DNA of 60,730 nt. Origin: Bacillota bacterium. Its GTDB lineage: Bacteria > Bacillota > Limnochordia > Darwinibacteriales > Darwinibacteriaceae. The stretch's first letter is position 1; each line of letters begins with the position of its first letter. The stretch is from positions 1 to 60,730 of the forward strand of contig DURQ01000005.1 in assembly GCA_012840725.1 (NCBI GenBank). Reading direction: 5' to 3'. The position numbers and the translations under genes are program-made. Below the pieces are notes generated by a model. That model saw only the letters and a program-made list of their open reading frames with translations. It had not been told where the DNA came from and searched no databases. Positions 24,566 through 49,424 of the stretch are shown here, piece after piece.

Positions 24566-24594
24566 GAGGCTGATATGCAAAAGCCGTGAACAGG

Positions 24595-24808
24595 AGTAGT
24601 ATGGAGGTGCCCAGAGAGCTGCTGGCCGGTGCGAAGCAGCGCAAATTCCTTCAGAACTCGCCTGGGAGCTGCTGGTGCGAAATGTAGTGCCAGCCGGTCA
24701 TGCCGTTACCATGGGAGAGTGGATCGCTCGGTCTTCTGTCGCGCGATCAATTAGAGTGGTACCGCGGAAATCTTTCGTCTCTAAGGAGAGGGAAGGTTTT
24801 TTCTTTTT
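24595..24808 (+). promoter_or_regulatory. T-box riboswitch (leucine) upstream of leuS
   Basis: The canonical T-box AGAGTGGTACCGCGG is at 24753-24767. Stem I has the AGAGAG bulge (24613-24618) and a GGTGCGAAG-type distal part. On its 3' side GAACTCGCC places CTC (24657-24659), a leucine codon, in the specifier loop. The base after TGG in the antiterminator bulge is T, pairing with the A discriminator of tRNA-Leu. The terminator (24770-24808) has a GTCTCT/GGAGAG-type stem followed by TTTTTTCTTTTT. Uncharged tRNA-Leu should stabilise the antiterminator and switch leuS on. Confidence 0.92.
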
Positions 24809-24839
24809 ATCAGCACAGGATAGGATTGGAGGAAGCAGG

Positions 24840-27251
24840 ATGGCCCGTTACAACTTCCGAGCCGTGGAAAAGAAATGGCAGGAGATCTGGGAAAACGAGC
24901 AGATCTTCAGAACCAGCAGTGACTTCAGTAAACCCAAGTATTACGCCCTCGTAGAGTTTCCCTACCCATCCGGGGAAGGGCTGCATGTCGGGCATCCCAG
25001 GCCGTATACCGCCCTGGATGTCCTGGCCCGCAAGCGCCGCATGGAAGGCTTCAATGTCCTCTTCCCAATGGGCTGGGATGCCTTCGGCCTGCCCACGGAA
25101 AACTTCGCCATTCAGACTAAGATCCACCCGGCGGTGATCACCGAGCGGAACATCAACCGCTTCCGGCAGCAGCTGCAGTCCTTGGGGTTTTCCTTCGACT
25201 GGTCCCGGGAGGTCAATACCACCGACCCCAATTACTTCAAATGGACCCAGTGGATCTTCCTCAAGCTGTTTGAGAAAGGCCTCGCCTACAAAAAGGAGAT
25301 GCCCATCAACTGGTGCCCGCGCTGCAAGATCGGCTTGGCCAATGAGGAAGTTGTGGATGGCGCCTGCGAGCGCTGCGGCCACGAAGTTGAGACCAGGGTT
25401 AAGAATCAGTGGATGCTGCGCATCACCGCTTACGCCGAGCGCTTGATCAACGACCTGGAAATGGTCGATTACATCGAGCGGGTCAAGGTGCAGCAGCGCA
25501 ACTGGATCGGCCGTTCCGAAGGTGCGGAAGTGCTGTTCAAAATCAAGGACACAGAGGAAAACCTGACCGTCTTCACTACCAGGCCGGACACTCTGTTCGG
25601 AGCTACCTACATGGTGATCTCGCCAGAACACCCTGTCCTCCAGAAACTGAGGGACCGCATCACGAATATGCCGGAGATCGAGGCCTACCAGGAACAGGCC
25701 CGGAAGAAGTCTGAGTTCGAGCGCGCCCAGCTTGTTCGAGAGAAGACGGGCGTGCGGGTTGAGGGGCTCAGCGCGATCAACCCGGCCACCAACGCGGAGA
25801 TCCCCATCTGGGCTTCCGACTACGTACTCATGACCTACGGCACGGGAGCCATCATGGCTGTTCCCGGCCACGATGAGAGGGACTGGGAGTTCGCCAAGAA
25901 GTTCGGCCTGCCCATCGTGGAAGTTGTGGCGGGCGGCGATGTTGAGAAAGAAGCCTACACCGACACTGAAAAGGGGACTATGGTCAACTCCGGCTTCCTC
26001 AACGGCCTGGATGTACCCACAGCAAAAAAGAAGATCACGGCCTGGCTCCAGGAGAGGGGCCTCGGAGTTCCCAAGGTGAACTACAAACTGCGGGACTGGG
26101 TCTTCTCGCGGCAGCGTTATTGGGGCGAACCCATCCCCCTGGTCTACTGCGAGAAATGCGGCTGGGTGCCTGTGCCCGAAAGTGAACTGCCGGTGCGCCT
26201 GCCCCAGGTGGCCAACTACGAGCCGACCGATACGGGTGAGTCGCCGCTGGCGAAGATCCGGCACTGGGTGGAGACTACCTGCCCCAAGTGCGGAGGCTAT
26301 GCCGAGCGGGAAACCGACACCATGCCCCAATGGGCCGGGTCGTCCTGGTACTTCCTGCGTTACTGCGATCCCCACAATGATCAGGAACTGGCCAGCCGGG
26401 AAGCCCTCGAATACTGGCTGCCCGTGGATTGGTACAACGGCGGTATGGAGCACACCACCCTGCACCTGCTCTACTCCCGCTTCTGGCACAAGTTCTTGTA
26501 CGATCTCGGCATCGTGCCGACGCCAGAGCCCTACGCCAAGCGCACCTCCCACGGGATGATCCTTGGCGAGAACAACGAGAAGATGTCCAAGTCCCGGGGC
26601 AACGTGGTCAACCCCGATGAGGTAGTGGAAGAATACGGAGCAGATACCCTGCGCCTCTACGAAATGTTCATCGGTGACTTCGAGAAGGCGGTTCCCTGGA
26701 GCACCGAGGGAGTGAAAGGCTGCAAGCGCTTCCTGGATCGGGTCTGGAAGATGATGGACATGGTCATTCCCGGTGCAGAGTACCGGCCCGAGCTGGAAGC
26801 CAAGGTACACCAGACCATAAAGAAAGTCAGCCAGGATTACGAGAATCTGAAGTTTAACACAGCCATCGCCGCCCTGATGACCCTGGTGAACGAAGTATAC
26901 CGCCTGGAGTCCATCAACGAAGCGGAGATGAAGACGGTCCTCCTCCTCCTGAACCCAGTTGCGCCACATATCACCGAGGAGATCTGGGAGAAACTCGGCT
27001 TTGAAGGCATGCTCAATGAGCAGCGCTGGCCCGTTTGGGATGAAGCGAAGACCGTGGAACAGACTGTAGAGATCGGAGTGCAGGTTAACGGCAAGCTGCG
27101 GGCCACGATCACCGTGAACCTGGACGACCCGCAGGAAGCTGCTCGGGAGAAGGCCCTGTCCGCTGAAGCAGTCAAGCGAGCCCTGGACGGCAAGACCATT
27201 GTCAAGGAAGTATACGTGCCCGGGCGGATTTACAATATCGTGGTAAAGTGA
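24840..27251 (+). CDS. leuS: Leucyl-tRNA synthetase
   Basis: An 803-residue class I synthetase charging tRNA-Leu. The HIGH-type motif is in [18 protein letters not shown]; the KMSKS motif is exact ([18 protein letters not shown]). The editing domain insert has the characteristic [13 protein letters not shown] and [14 protein letters not shown]. Zinc-type cysteines are at [12 protein letters not shown]. The start is the ATG at 24840 after GGAGGAAGCAGG; the longer open frame to 24675 runs through the T-box and is not coding. Controlled by the T-box leader. Confidence 0.97.
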
Positions 27252-43330: not shown

Positions 43331-43789
43331 CTACCAAAGCGGGAAGTTCTCCAGCGTTACAGCGAAATGGAAGACGAGGAAGACCAGGCTGAGGACGCTG
43401 ATCAGGCGGATCCGCTGGGCCAGCCCGGCAAGGAAGAAAGCGATAGGGGGCAGAACGACCATCGCGTAGATGAGGGCATTGTGCTGTATCCCGATGTAAT
43501 AGAGCACCCATCCCAACCAGCAAAGGGCAATGGCCGCCAGGCTGAGCTTAGCCGTGAATCTCCCGAAGACAGGGGCTCCCTCCTGCCGCGGAACCAGGAA
43601 CACGAGGAAGATCACGATGGAGATACCCAGAATGTGCTCGCCGTACTCGAGAACGGGCACGGTGGATGAGTTCGCGGTCAAGACGTTCTGAGCGGGTGGA
43701 AACAAGACCCAGAAAACATTGGGCAGCAGCTGCAGCGCCGCCACCATGAACCCGAACTTGGAGAAACCGATCCTCACATTCCTCAGCAC
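43331..43789 (-). CDS. Small multi-pass membrane protein of unknown function
   Basis: A 152-residue protein with about five hydrophobic segments (for example GFMVAALQLLPNVFWVLF, ILGISIVIFLVFLV, LSLAAIALCWLGWVLYYIG). I do not recognise a family; the pattern resembles DUF-type membrane proteins. The GTG start overlaps the stop of the macro-domain gene by seven bases (GTGCTGA), so its translation probably depends on that gene. A link to ADP-ribose biology is only contextual. Confidence 0.7.
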   Translation of the reverse strand: MLRNVRIGFSKFGFMVAALQLLPNVFWVLFPPAQNVLTANSSTVPVLEYGEHILGISIVIFLVFLVPRQEGAPVFGRFTAKLSLAAIALCWLGWVLYYIGIQHNALIYAMVVLPPIAFFLAGLAQRIRLISVLSLVFLVFHFAVTLENFPLW

Positions 43790-44772
43790 TCCTTTTCCCC
43801 CTTCCCCACACTGCCAAGGAGCGGCAGGCCGTAGCTGAACAGGACTTCGTTGATGGCGTAAACATCGTACATTCCATGGATGATGAAGTACTGGACTATC
43901 ACATCGAACATCTGGCTGGGCGAGAGGGCGTACCCGGCTTTCTTGAGCAGGATTTCGGTTTCTTCCAGGGAAAGCTCCAGGGCGATGGCTAGGGCGAGCA
44001 CCGTGCGCTTGCTGGGCACATAGTCCCGGTTGCTGCGGATCTTGGAAAAGTGGCGGCGGTCCAGGTTAGCCCGCTTGTACACTTCCACATCGGTCCTACC
44101 TTTCGCATCGATCAGCCGGAACAGGGCTTCGGCGAAAGACTCTTCCAGATCCGCGAGGAGGCTGTCTACGGTGCGAACGGGAACATAGGAGTAGAGCGCC
44201 TGATGGGACTCCGCCCGTTCTTCCAAGAGCTCGGCATGGCGCCCTTCCCTCTCCTCGGCCGCATAACTGGCCAGGCCAGCCAGGAGCTCTTCTTCGATCT
44301 CAACGGCCTGCCGGTTCAGCACAGCCAAGTAGATCTCCAGATCGTGTTCGGCCAGGAAATCACGGATGGCCGCGGTGGCAATGTCCAGGGCTTCCCTCTT
44401 GGGGTAGCCGTAGATGCCGCTTGATATGAGCGGAAAAGCGATGCTGGTGCATCCCTGCTGCAGAGCCAGGCGCAGGCTGTTCAGGTAGCTCGCCCGCAGC
44501 AGATCAGCCTCGCCTTCTGATCCACCCTGGTACACAGGTCCCGCGGTGTGGATGACGTACTTGGCAGGCAGGGCGAACCCTGGAGTGATCACCGCTTCGC
44601 CCACGGCAATGGGGGCCAGAGGCCGGCAGGCCTTCTCCATTTCCTGGGCTCCTGCCGCCCGGAAGATCGCTCCGCACACTCCCCCGCCCATGACTAGACC
44701 CGGGTTGGCCGCATTGACAATAGCGTCCACCCGCATTGTGGTAATATCTTCCTGGACGATGCTGAAGGGCAT
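43783..44772 (-). CDS. Macro-domain ADP-ribose hydrolase-like protein with C-terminal helical (HTH-like) domain
   Basis: A 329-residue protein. Residues 1-170 are a macro domain: the binding loop VDAIVNAANPGLVMGGGVCG, VIHTAGPVY and the second loop FPLISSGIYGYPKREAL are intact, as in O-acetyl-ADP-ribose deacetylases/de-ADP-ribosylases. After a ~60-residue charged linker, a C-terminal domain (DLDRRHFSKIRSN-like NLDRRHFSKIRSNRDYVPSK, then TVLALAIALELSLEETEILL, KKAGYALSPSQ) looks like a helix-turn-helix-type bundle. The start is the ATG at 44772 after GAGGAAG; the frame continues upstream without support. Followed by a coupled membrane-protein gene. Confidence 0.88.
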   Translation of the reverse strand: MPFSIVQEDITTMRVDAIVNAANPGLVMGGGVCGAIFRAAGAQEMEKACRPLAPIAVGEAVITPGFALPAKYVIHTAGPVYQGGSEGEADLLRASYLNSLRLALQQGCTSIAFPLISSGIYGYPKREALDIATAAIRDFLAEHDLEIYLAVLNRQAVEIEEELLAGLASYAAEEREGRHAELLEERAESHQALYSYVPVRTVDSLLADLEESFAEALFRLIDAKGRTDVEVYKRANLDRRHFSKIRSNRDYVPSKRTVLALAIALELSLEETEILLKKAGYALSPSQMFDVIVQYFIIHGMYDVYAINEVLFSYGLPLLGSVGKGEKEC

Positions 44773-44895
44773 GGCACTTCCTCCTCTCCGTCTCAGGAGT
44801 CCTATTCTTCCCCAGCCCCGCCAATACCTCCCAGCAGTTCCCAGGGGGAGAGCCCAGACCGAGCACGAAGATCGACTGCGGAAGGAGTGAACGCG

Positions 44896-45543
44896 ATGGC
44901 TGTGCAGAGACTGCTTGCCCTCGTTCTCGCAATGTTCGCCCTGCTGGCTGTGGGCTGCCTCATGCCAACAGGACAGCACCCCGTGGAACTGGAGATCAAA
45001 GACGCCCCGGGAGGCCTGATCGCAAGGCCCCTCAGGCCCCGGGGGTCGAAAGACATCCGCTTTATCATGCTCCACGCGATGAGCGATGCCGCAGCAAACC
45101 CGGATGATCCCTTCCAGCTCGACCGCATCCAGTACATTTTCGAGAGCTACGAGGTGGAAGCCCACTACGTCATCGACCGTGAGGGGCAGATCTTCCGCTT
45201 TGTCGCAGATAACCGCACGGCCCGCCATGCCGGACGCGGCTCCTGGAACGGCGATCCGGAGCTGACCAACAACATGAACCGTTACGCCATCGGCATCGAA
45301 CTGATGGGTATAGGCAGCTCGGCAGAAATGGAGCCGGTAATCGGCGCAGCAGCAGATGCCCTGGTCCGCTCCGAAGATCGGGGTTACACCCAGGCCCAGT
45401 ACCTGGCCTTGAACATGCTCCTAGGTTACCTGATGAACCGCTACAGCGTCCCGCCGGAGAACATCCTTACCCACAAGGATTACGATCCCCAGCGCAAGTG
45501 GGACCCGGGAGAACTCTTCGATTGGGACAAACTGAGCTTGTGA
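44896..45543 (+). CDS. N-acetylmuramoyl-L-alanine amidase (Amidase_2), predicted lipoprotein
   Basis: A 215-residue zinc amidase that cuts the lactyl-amide bond of peptidoglycan or muropeptides. The signal (residues 1-20) ends in LLAVGC, a lipobox. Zinc ligands: His in FIMLHAMSD, His in HKDYDPQRKWDPG or ARHAGRGSW, and the C-terminal Asp in KWDPG; Glu in GIELMG is the usual catalytic helper. The ATG at 44896 follows GAAGGAG; the GTG at 44887 is too close to it. Divergent from the macro-domain gene. It may recycle or remodel the wall with the dipeptidase at 56.4 kb. Confidence 0.86.
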   Translation: MAVQRLLALVLAMFALLAVGCLMPTGQHPVELEIKDAPGGLIARPLRPRGSKDIRFIMLHAMSDAAANPDDPFQLDRIQYIFESYEVEAHYVIDREGQIFRFVADNRTARHAGRGSWNGDPELTNNMNRYAIGIELMGIGSSAEMEPVIGAAADALVRSEDRGYTQAQYLALNMLLGYLMNRYSVPPENILTHKDYDPQRKWDPGELFDWDKLSL

Positions 45544-46919: not shown

Positions 46920-48497
46920 TCAGACCTGAAACCGCCGCATCTGCGAGTCCAGTGTCTCCGCTGCACGGGCCACTTCCGCTGCAGATGCCGCCATCTGCTC
47001 TGCAGAGGCAGATTGCTGTTCGGTAGTTGCTCCCATCTCCTCGGCACCTGCCGCCAGCTCTTCACTAGTGGCCGCTACATCGGCAATCCCTCTCGACAGG
47101 GACTCAATGGCACTTGCTATATCCCCGAACATGGAGCCGGTATGGGCCACAACCTCCATACCCGCCCGCACTTTTTGGGTTCCTTCTCCTGCCCGGTCCA
47201 CCGAAGAATGGACGGCTTCCCTAATGCGCTGGATCAACTGGGTGATCTCACCAGCTGCCTTGGCAGACTGCTCGGCGAGCTGGCGTACTTCTTCAGCCAC
47301 AACTGCGAAACCGCGGCCTTGCTCGCCTGCTCTGGCCGCTTCAATGGCCGCGTTGAGGGCCAGGAGATTAGTCTGGTCGGCGATACCGGTGATCAGGGAC
47401 ACAATCTTCCCGATCTCCTCCGAGTGGTGTCCCAGGGCTTTGATCTCCGTGGCCAGAGCCGAAACCACTTCGTTGATTTCATTCATGGACGTGACAGTGC
47501 GTTCAATATCGGTGGAGCCGTTCGTGGCCAGTTCATTGGACTTAGCGGCCAAGATGGACATTTCCTGAGTGTTCTGGCTCAGGCGGTCCACGGCACTGGC
47601 GAACTCATTGGCGCTGCCGGCCAATTCTTCCACCGAAGCACTGGTCTCCTGTGCTCCGGATGCCATTTGCTCTGCGGAAGAGCGCACAATCCCCACGGAC
47701 TCCCGGACGGATCGGACCAATTCGCGCAGATCCGCTTTCATTCTATTCATCGCCTCAGTCAGGCGGCCGATTTCATCCTTACTCTTGTAATCCACATCGG
47801 CAACGGCCAGGTTGCCGTCGGCAATCTCATTGGTCAAGGCCAAAAGCTTGGCTGCGGGCCTGGTGATGGACTTGGTAATAAGAAAAGTGGCCAGCACGGC
47901 TGTTGCGCACGCCAACACCATCAAACCGACAACAGTGGAGGTAGCGGACGAAGCACTGCGTTGAGCTTCCTGGTTGAAGTTCTCAGCCCGCAGCATCGCA
48001 TCCCGCACCACCTCCTGGATGGCGCGTTCTACAAGCTGGATTTGGGCAGTGCCCTCGTTCCTGCTGATCTGTGCCGCGTTCTCTTCTAGACCGAGATCCA
48101 GGAAACGGAACACTTCATCGCGAATGGGCTCCCAATCGTTAAAGGCTTTGAGGGCAGCATCAATTAACGCCGGATCACCCAAAAACCTTTCGTAGAGCGT
48201 GTTAAAATCAGCCAGGACCTTATCGTTCAGTTCGTTCACTTTGCTGATGTGACCCTTGCGGGCAGTTGAATCAGTGGTCAAGATTAGGTCTTTCATCTCC
48301 CGGGACATGGCCGTGACCCTGGCTTGAGCCTGCAGGGCTGTGGCGGTTGCTGTGTAAGAATAGTGAAACATGGTGTCCGTGTTGGATGCGATACGGTTCA
48401 TGTACAGAATGGCGAAACCCGTAACCACAGAGCCCACCACAAGCACGAGGGCAAAACCTAAGATGAGTTTCTTCGCTAGCGTTAGATTGCGGAACAT
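46920..48497 (-). CDS. Methyl-accepting chemotaxis protein
   Basis: A 525-residue inner-membrane chemoreceptor. TM1 is residues ~9-32 ([20 protein letters not shown]); an extracytoplasmic four-helix sensor follows to ~185; TM2 is [20 protein letters not shown]; then HAMP (from [20 protein letters not shown]), and a signalling hairpin with the highly conserved [20 protein letters not shown] and [20 protein letters not shown]. The ATG follows GGAGAG. It overlaps the cheW stop by 16 bases, so receptor and coupling protein are produced together, under the c-di-GMP riboswitch upstream. Confidence 0.95.
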
Positions 48498-48982
48498 GTT
48501 GCTCTCTCCTTAGCGGCGTCTTCGAGTTGTCTAGTTTCCTGAGTTGTCAGTAGTTGTACTGTGTTGACAATGGGAATCAAGCGACCTTCCAGTTTGCAGA
48601 TGGAATCGATCACATTAGCATGCAGCCCCTGAATTGCATCCAAACTTTCCACAGACGGTCGAGAAATGTTCAGCACCTCTGAAACAGTGTCCACCAAAAA
48701 CCCGACCATGCCATCCTCCACTTCCACTAGGAGAATTCTCTGCTTGTCCCGATCAACTACTGCGCCGTCTCCCATGGCGAATCTGGCTTTGAGGTCGATC
48801 ACGGGCAGGATACTGCCCCGCACGTTGATGATCCCCACCATAGAAGGAGGCATATCGGGAAGCGAGACCAGTTTGGCAACTGCGATGATCTCCCTGACCA
48901 CAGCTATAGGTATGGCAAACTCCGTTCCACCAACAGAGAACACCACCACCTGAAACTCCTGCGACTTCTGCCGTTCGTCCAT
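48482..48982 (-). CDS. cheW: Chemotaxis coupling protein CheW
   Basis: A 166-residue CheW. It links chemoreceptors to the kinase CheA in the cytoplasm. Typical pieces: [20 protein letters not shown] at the start, [20 protein letters not shown] in the middle, and [14 protein letters not shown] with a C-terminal [13 protein letters not shown]. The ATG follows GGGAGGTGAACAGAG. No cheA is in the window. It lies ~60 bases after a degraded HD-GYP tail and ~300 bases after the c-di-GMP aptamer. Confidence 0.94.
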
Positions 48983-49042: not shown

Positions 49043-49192
49043 TCATCTGGACACAGCCACGTCAAGGCGAACTGTGGACATGAAGATGTCCACAATATCT
49101 TGGTTAAACTGCGTCCCGGCATGCTCTTCCAGATAGGCGAGGCAAGCGGACATACTCAACGCTCGGCGGTAAGTGACAAGAGCAATCCACAT
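49043..49192 (-). pseudogene. C-terminal remnant of an HD-GYP c-di-GMP phosphodiesterase
   Basis: A 49-codon frame (ATG at 49192, stop at 49043) encodes YRRALSMSACLAYLEEHAG, then TQFNQDIVDIFM. This matches the extreme C-terminus of HD-GYP proteins, where RPYRKALS...AL..L...AGTQFDP..V..F is conserved. The catalytic HD and GYP motifs are absent, and the upstream DALTSDRPY-type segment is shortened to IALVTYRR. It lies directly after the riboswitch terminator, so it appears to be what is left of the gene first controlled by that riboswitch. Confidence 0.7.
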
Positions 49193-49218
49193 CCCACGTC
49201 ATAATTGCAAACAAAAAA

Positions 49219-49249
49219 AGAGCCCGCTTCCGACATAAGGAATGGCTCT
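49219..49249 (-). terminator. Expression-platform terminator of the c-di-GMP riboswitch
   Basis: AGAGCC-ATTCC pairs with GGAAG-C-GGGCTCT and runs into TTTTTTTG leftwards, ~40 bases after the aptamer. It is the natural on/off element for the downstream genes. Confidence 0.75.
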
Positions 49250-49283
49250 TCCAACGCCAAACAAAGGTGTCTGGGACACCACT

Positions 49284-49377
49284 GCGAAGAGCAACTCGGC
49301 CGTCATGGCTGCTGAGCAGCTTTAGACCCGTAGCTTTGCGTCCGCTCCTTTCGGAACGTTTGCCTTTTTTCTTCCCC
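49284..49377 (-). promoter_or_regulatory. Cyclic-di-GMP-I (GEMM-I) riboswitch aptamer
   Basis: Read leftwards: a P1 arm GGGGAAGA, then GGCAAACG, the GAAA tetraloop hairpin (TTCCGAAAGGAGC), the core GGACGCAAAGCTACGGGTCT, the P3 hairpin AGCTGC-TCA-GCAGC, then CATGACGGCCGAGTTGC and the closing TCTTC. These match the GEMM-I consensus: GCAAAC, the GAAA loop and its receptor, GACGCAAAGC, CGGGTCTAA, ATGA and the GCCGAGTTGC end. It binds c-di-GMP and should control transcription of cheW-mcp through the terminator at 49219-49249. Confidence 0.92.
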
Positions 49378-49395
49378 GATTTCCTGTTCCGGCAT

Positions 49396-49424
49396 ATTAT
49401 TGCACCGTATCCGAATAAAGTCAA
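49396..49424 (-). promoter_or_regulatory. Promoter of the c-di-GMP riboswitch/cheW-mcp transcript
   Basis: TTGACT (49424-49419) and AATAAT (49401-49396) with a 17-base spacer. Transcription would begin near 49389, about ten bases before the aptamer. The stretch 49425-49600 shows no gene. Confidence 0.7.

Follow-up and report, generated by a model that had tools for sequence, protein, structure and literature searches.

A c-di-GMP-I riboswitch predicted to act as an OFF switch for a cheW-chemoreceptor operon in an uncultured Bacillota family

Organization of the cheW-mcp locus

The window, i.e., the whole stretch of 60,730 nt analyzed here, is one contig (C30) of a 2.06-Mb genome in 103 contigs, which is approximately 84% complete. 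All elements of the locus (promoter, aptamer, terminator, cheW, and mcp) reside on the minus strand, which the initial annotation had left unstated. The cheW gene (48482..48982) is preceded by the SD sequence GGGGGGAGGTG and encodes 166 residues with a CheW domain (PF01584, 2.3e-33, 115.2 bits against a cut-off of 23.5 bits). The 525-residue product of mcp (46920..48497) shows the Pfam domains of a chemotaxis receptor, a sensory 4HB_MCP_1 domain, a HAMP domain, and the MCPsignal domain (PF00015), and its named close relatives come from uncultured Bacillota MAGs. Pfam thus confirms both of the genes that had been proposed to follow with overlapping frames, and the overlap comprises 16 bp. A gap of 230 bp separates the terminator from cheW, the first intact gene after it.

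The genome encodes flagellins, 11 MCP-domain matches, and three CheW-domain proteins. Apart from the window CheW, these are the 171-residue and 664-residue frames located together on contig C24, the longer of which is presumably CheA-like, judging from its size and position. The CheW of the window may thus be an additional, riboswitch-controlled coupling protein next to a main chemotaxis locus. A search for a plasmid origin found none. Elsewhere in the window, an ORF on the minus strand (43783-45228) carries a macro domain (PF01661) and a long C-terminal part that is helix-turn-helix-like in look. Its N-terminal stretch largely overlaps an amidase gene on the opposite strand, and the true start therefore probably lies later.

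A cmscan search with all Rfam families placed a c-di-GMP-I (GEMM-I) aptamer at 49374-49287 (score 80.1 bits, cut-off 35 bits, E-value 3.6e-14). The match covers the RF01051 covariance model at full length (1-87/87) and is the best-scoring of the four c-di-GMP-I riboswitches in its genome. The GEMM-I core, which the initial annotation had read from the letters and had staked on such a scan, is therefore upheld. The hairpin with the GAAA tetraloop (CGUUCC-GAAA-GGAGCG), the P3 hairpin, and the 3' GCCGAGUUGC are likewise present as described, and the window shares the tetraloop on P2 with five related leaders. The other Rfam match in the window is an ordinary T-box leader (24577-24785, plus strand, 126 bits) before an apparent leucyl-tRNA synthetase gene (frame 24675-27251).

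Promoter, terminator and alternative folds of the leader

The consensus scan found a sigma-A-type promoter at 49396..49424 (TTGACT-17-AATAAT, its -10 element being preceded by TG), upstream of the aptamer and with the 17-base spacing claimed for it. The orthologous leaders of three sister genomes (L046, L043, and L039) carry a promoter at the same position (TTGATT/TTGACA-17-AACAAT/AATAAT), ending 20-21 nt upstream of the aptamer, and a similar promoter precedes the paralogous leader L035. The intrinsic terminator (49213..49251) consists of a hairpin and the seven Ts that had been claimed (49219-49213), the T-run being located just outside the interval 49219-49424 originally quoted. The promoter/terminator consensus scan missed this terminator. 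The hairpin that it called terminator-like (49280-49266, GGTGTCCCAGACACC) is an accessory hairpin in the interval between aptamer and terminator, lying inside the antiterminator described below, and was rejected as a terminator.

RNAfold predicted for the full leader, up to the end of the T-run, the aptamer with a 5-bp P1 (GAAGA:UCUUC, 5' strand at 49370..49374) together with the terminator. For the leader lacking the last 22 nt, and hence the 3' arm of the terminator, it predicted a 7-bp antiterminator between GCUCUUC (49292-49286) and GAAGAGC (49251-49245). All seven bases of GCUCUUC form the 5' strand of the antiterminator, the last five being also the 3' strand of P1, and GAAGAGC overlaps the 5' arm of the terminator. 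The two folds, P1 with terminator and antiterminator, are mutually exclusive, an exclusivity that is unclear in L039.

The antiterminator duplex of the window has a predicted energy of -15.3 kcal/mol, matched by one of 200 shuffles. The duplex reached p ≤ 0.015 in L034, L035, L043, and L046 as well and was weak in L039 (p = 0.42). RNAalifold found it unprompted in an alignment of six leaders, with a compensatory change from C-G to U-A in L034; this covariation is thin, and the agreement is not independent, because the six leaders are related and homologous. P1 comprises only 5 bp and is no better than shuffles of the same composition (p = 0.35), suggesting that its formation rests on stabilization by the ligand. 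The antiterminator was not chosen in the truncated fold of L034. The minimum-energy folds of the full L046 and L043 leaders kept it over P1 and terminator, which would be expected for the ligand-free ON state and is also a sign of a close balance. An antiterminator common to the riboswitches of the whole family was considered and rejected, as only 9 of the 36 loci with a called terminator reached p ≤ 0.05. Five of these nine belong to the window's own type, which points to a type-specific platform.

The initial annotation left open whether the switch turns expression on or off; the folds predict OFF. At low c-di-GMP, GCUCUUC at the 3' end of the aptamer would pair with GAAGAGC, the terminator would be blocked, and cheW-mcp would be made. 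At high c-di-GMP, the ligand would hold P1 (GAAGA:UCUUC), thereby leaving GAAGAGC free for the terminator, and the terminated leader would not supply the extra coupling protein and chemoreceptor. Since the antiterminator competes for bases with P1 as well as with the terminator, a ligand-stabilized P1 would mean termination. We therefore consider it likely that the leader is a c-di-GMP-I riboswitch acting by transcription attenuation as an OFF switch for the cheW-mcp operon. Clostridioides difficile has seven functional class I switches, each of them OFF, the same direction as predicted here (PMC6366702). The class I riboswitch Bc1 before mcpE in Bacillus thuringiensis showed no response to c-di-GMP in vivo, which counts against our reading (PMC11218506).

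The same RNA might instead work as an ON switch, with the ligand favoring read-through, as reported for the class I riboswitch Bc2 of B. thuringiensis; ON switches of class I are known (PMC6366702). The weak P1 and the close balance in the L046 and L043 folds would suit such a switch. We nevertheless find it unlikely, because P1 and the antiterminator share 49290-49286, so that a stabilized P1 must disfavor the antiterminator and the geometry is that of an OFF switch. It is also quite unlikely that c-di-GMP is nearly irrelevant to a real aptamer, either because cheW-mcp is transcribed mainly from its own promoter past the terminator or because the switch is locked, as Bc1-mcpE appears to be locked OFF in vivo (PMC11218506). 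The 230 bp between terminator and cheW, partly a pseudogene remnant, hold two weak sigma-A-like matches of 8 of 12 positions (49179 and 49042). However, the good promoter is the one at 49424, conserved in position, and the stretch between terminator and cheW contains no sigma-A-like match of at least 9/12 on the minus strand; nor is there a SigD-like match of 9/12 in the last 244 bp upstream of cheW.

As for the ligand, the contact bases G20, A47, and C92 are all present in the cmscan alignment of the window aptamer, at what we take to be positions 20, 47, and 92 of the Vc2 numbering. In this placement, which is our own, position 20 is the G preceding the G21-C22 pair. Some members of GEMM-I are selective for cGAMP (PMC8835794, PMC6456294), and the window RNA could in principle bind such another cyclic dinucleotide in place of c-di-GMP. 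In GEMM-Ib RNAs, selectivity for cGAMP goes with A20, and the A20G exchange leads to c-di-GMP (PMC6456294), whereas the window has G20, the letter of the c-di-GMP type. Together with the nine GGDEF and four HD_5 domains above the cut-off in the genome, this makes cGAMP as the ligand very improbable. Judging from its sequence, the window leader is a genuine c-di-GMP-I riboswitch, with c-di-GMP as the predicted ligand.

An HD-GYP gene remnant and related operons

What is left of an HD-GYP (HD_5) gene lies in the gap between terminator and cheW (49043..49179), where alignment to L046 identified it; the intact orthologs match PF13487. The start region TTG-TCA-CT (49179-49171) is joined out of frame to a C-terminal part, which extends from an ATG at 49153 to a stop ending at 49043 (36 residues, MSACLAYLEEHAGTQFNQDIVDIFMSTVRLDVAVSR). 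Translation from the start codon reaches a stop after seven codons, and the C-terminal part could give at most a 36-residue peptide without catalytic residues. Between the promoter and the cheW start, 434 of the 475 bases aligned with L046 are identical, and the HD-GYP gene lacks approximately 430 bp. The HD and GYP motifs are missing and the frames disagree at the junction, so the window copy does not qualify as a phosphodiesterase. The lost part does not turn up as a separate copy among the HD_5 matches of the approximately 84%-complete genome. An assembly or sequencing error might lie behind the deletion in the window or the frameshift in L046. The elements that the initial annotation named in the leader are all present; the expression platform and this remnant had escaped it.

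The sister genomes contain the order riboswitch-HD-GYP-cheW-mcp, with the HD-GYP frame open in L043 and L039 and frameshifted in L046; the L039 mcp gene is split in the assembly. All three orthologous operons have kept the riboswitch and cheW-mcp. In the window genome, the same type of riboswitch precedes an intact HD-GYP gene on contig C48 (L034) and, directly, another 4HB-type mcp on contig C41 (L035). The HD-GYP products match PF13487 with 97.0 (L043), 79.9 (L039), and 68.2 bits (L034), and their HDIGK and GYP motifs are visible. These arrangements suggest an ancestral operon with a phosphodiesterase-type HD-GYP gene in first place, followed by cheW-mcp; in the window, a large internal deletion would have broken this HD-GYP gene. 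The simplest reading of the three loci in this genome may be one module that was duplicated and suffered different losses.

The arrangement riboswitch-cheW-mcp also occurs in L054 (genome G007) and in L098, the MCP of which has 53% identity; L097 has cheW-mcp without the riboswitch on the stretch read. Among 61 riboswitch loci read in the genome and its relatives, the first gene is HD-GYP in six (leaving out one more distal multidomain match); five loci have cheW and 16 have an MCP gene within 1.3 kb. HD-GYP genes behind the riboswitch are not confined to the genus, since L052 belongs to a different genus of the family and L089 to a different family of the order. The initial annotation had tied receptor supply directly to c-di-GMP. 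The aptamer is real and the riboswitch-cheW-mcp arrangement recurs in relatives; that the riboswitch controls the operon is what we infer.

Other riboswitch loci show different platforms. At L037 (600-1184, plus strand) and likewise in L041, L045, L047, L063, L074, L076, L077, L080, L081, and L084, a c-di-GMP-I aptamer ends directly at the SD sequence (GGAGG) of a gene for a 163-164-residue secreted protein, which in L037 has curlin repeats (PF07012, 64.6 bits). Leaders of this type have no fitting terminator, and the predicted fold of L063 pairs the SD sequence in an extended P1. At these loci, c-di-GMP probably acts on the translation of a curli-like amyloid. Further families of the same order have c-di-GMP-I matches next to genes with curlin repeats (G024:C36:5645-5874, a tandem pair with the first match below the cut-off, and G025:C208:1633-1723), which extends the curlin link beyond the genus. 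Another type of riboswitch, whose terminator is compact, stands before a FapA-family gene in L036 on contig C21 (PF20250 and PF03961) and in L038, L040, L042, L044, L048, L050, L060, L065, L069, L071, L075, and L085. In several genomes, this gene is followed by a small anti-sigma-factor-antagonist-like gene and a histidine-kinase-type ATPase-like gene, as judged by eye. Paired c-di-GMP-I aptamers with starts approximately 130-220 nt apart occur in several related genomes (G025:C29, G040:C13, G044:C201, G046:C289, G059:C86, and G036:C133).

Possible feedback and comparison with known systems

We tentatively propose, as a possibility we hold with less than even confidence, that an OFF riboswitch represses HD-GYP, cheW, and the chemoreceptor together, so that rising c-di-GMP would lower its own breakdown in an RNA-based positive feedback. 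In the window genome, duplication and loss would have split this module into riboswitch-HD-GYP on C48, riboswitch-mcp on C41, and riboswitch-cheW-mcp on C30. In C. difficile, the expression of one phosphodiesterase gene falls 5-fold at high c-di-GMP (PMC6200980), which makes such feedback plausible. If true, it could render the step from motile to sessile life switch-like. The locus offers a clean link from riboswitch to chemoreceptor in an uncultured Bacillota family, with the exact bases predicted to switch, and several genomes contribute related loci in which the riboswitch is followed by an HD-GYP gene.

Chemoreceptor genes with a class I riboswitch in front have been described before, from B. 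anthracis (PMC6366702) and as Bc1-mcpE (PMC11218506), and the window adds another case of this arrangement. The least ordinary feature is the phosphodiesterase as a target of control, which is reportedly rare; the titles and abstracts listed in literature searches showed no described riboswitch-HD-GYP pair, which is not proof of absence. The HD-GYP phosphodiesterases (HD_5, PF13487) of orthologs L043 and L039 and paralog L034 carry both motifs behind the same riboswitch, whereas the window copy has neither. Bc1 of the Bacillus cereus group likewise combines a class I aptamer, intrinsic termination, and a chemoreceptor gene (PMC11218506). However, Bc1 has two terminators, exerts dual control of transcription and translation, and is locked in vivo, whereas the window leader has a single terminator and a clear antiterminator, and its first intact gene is cheW. 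Cd1 before the flgB operon of C. difficile, likened here by its description, also joins a class I aptamer to a terminator, and c-di-GMP turns the motility genes off (PMC6366702). Cd1 controls an early flagellar operon, whereas the window switch is followed by coupling-protein and receptor genes and, in the presumed ancestral operon, by an HD-GYP gene as well.
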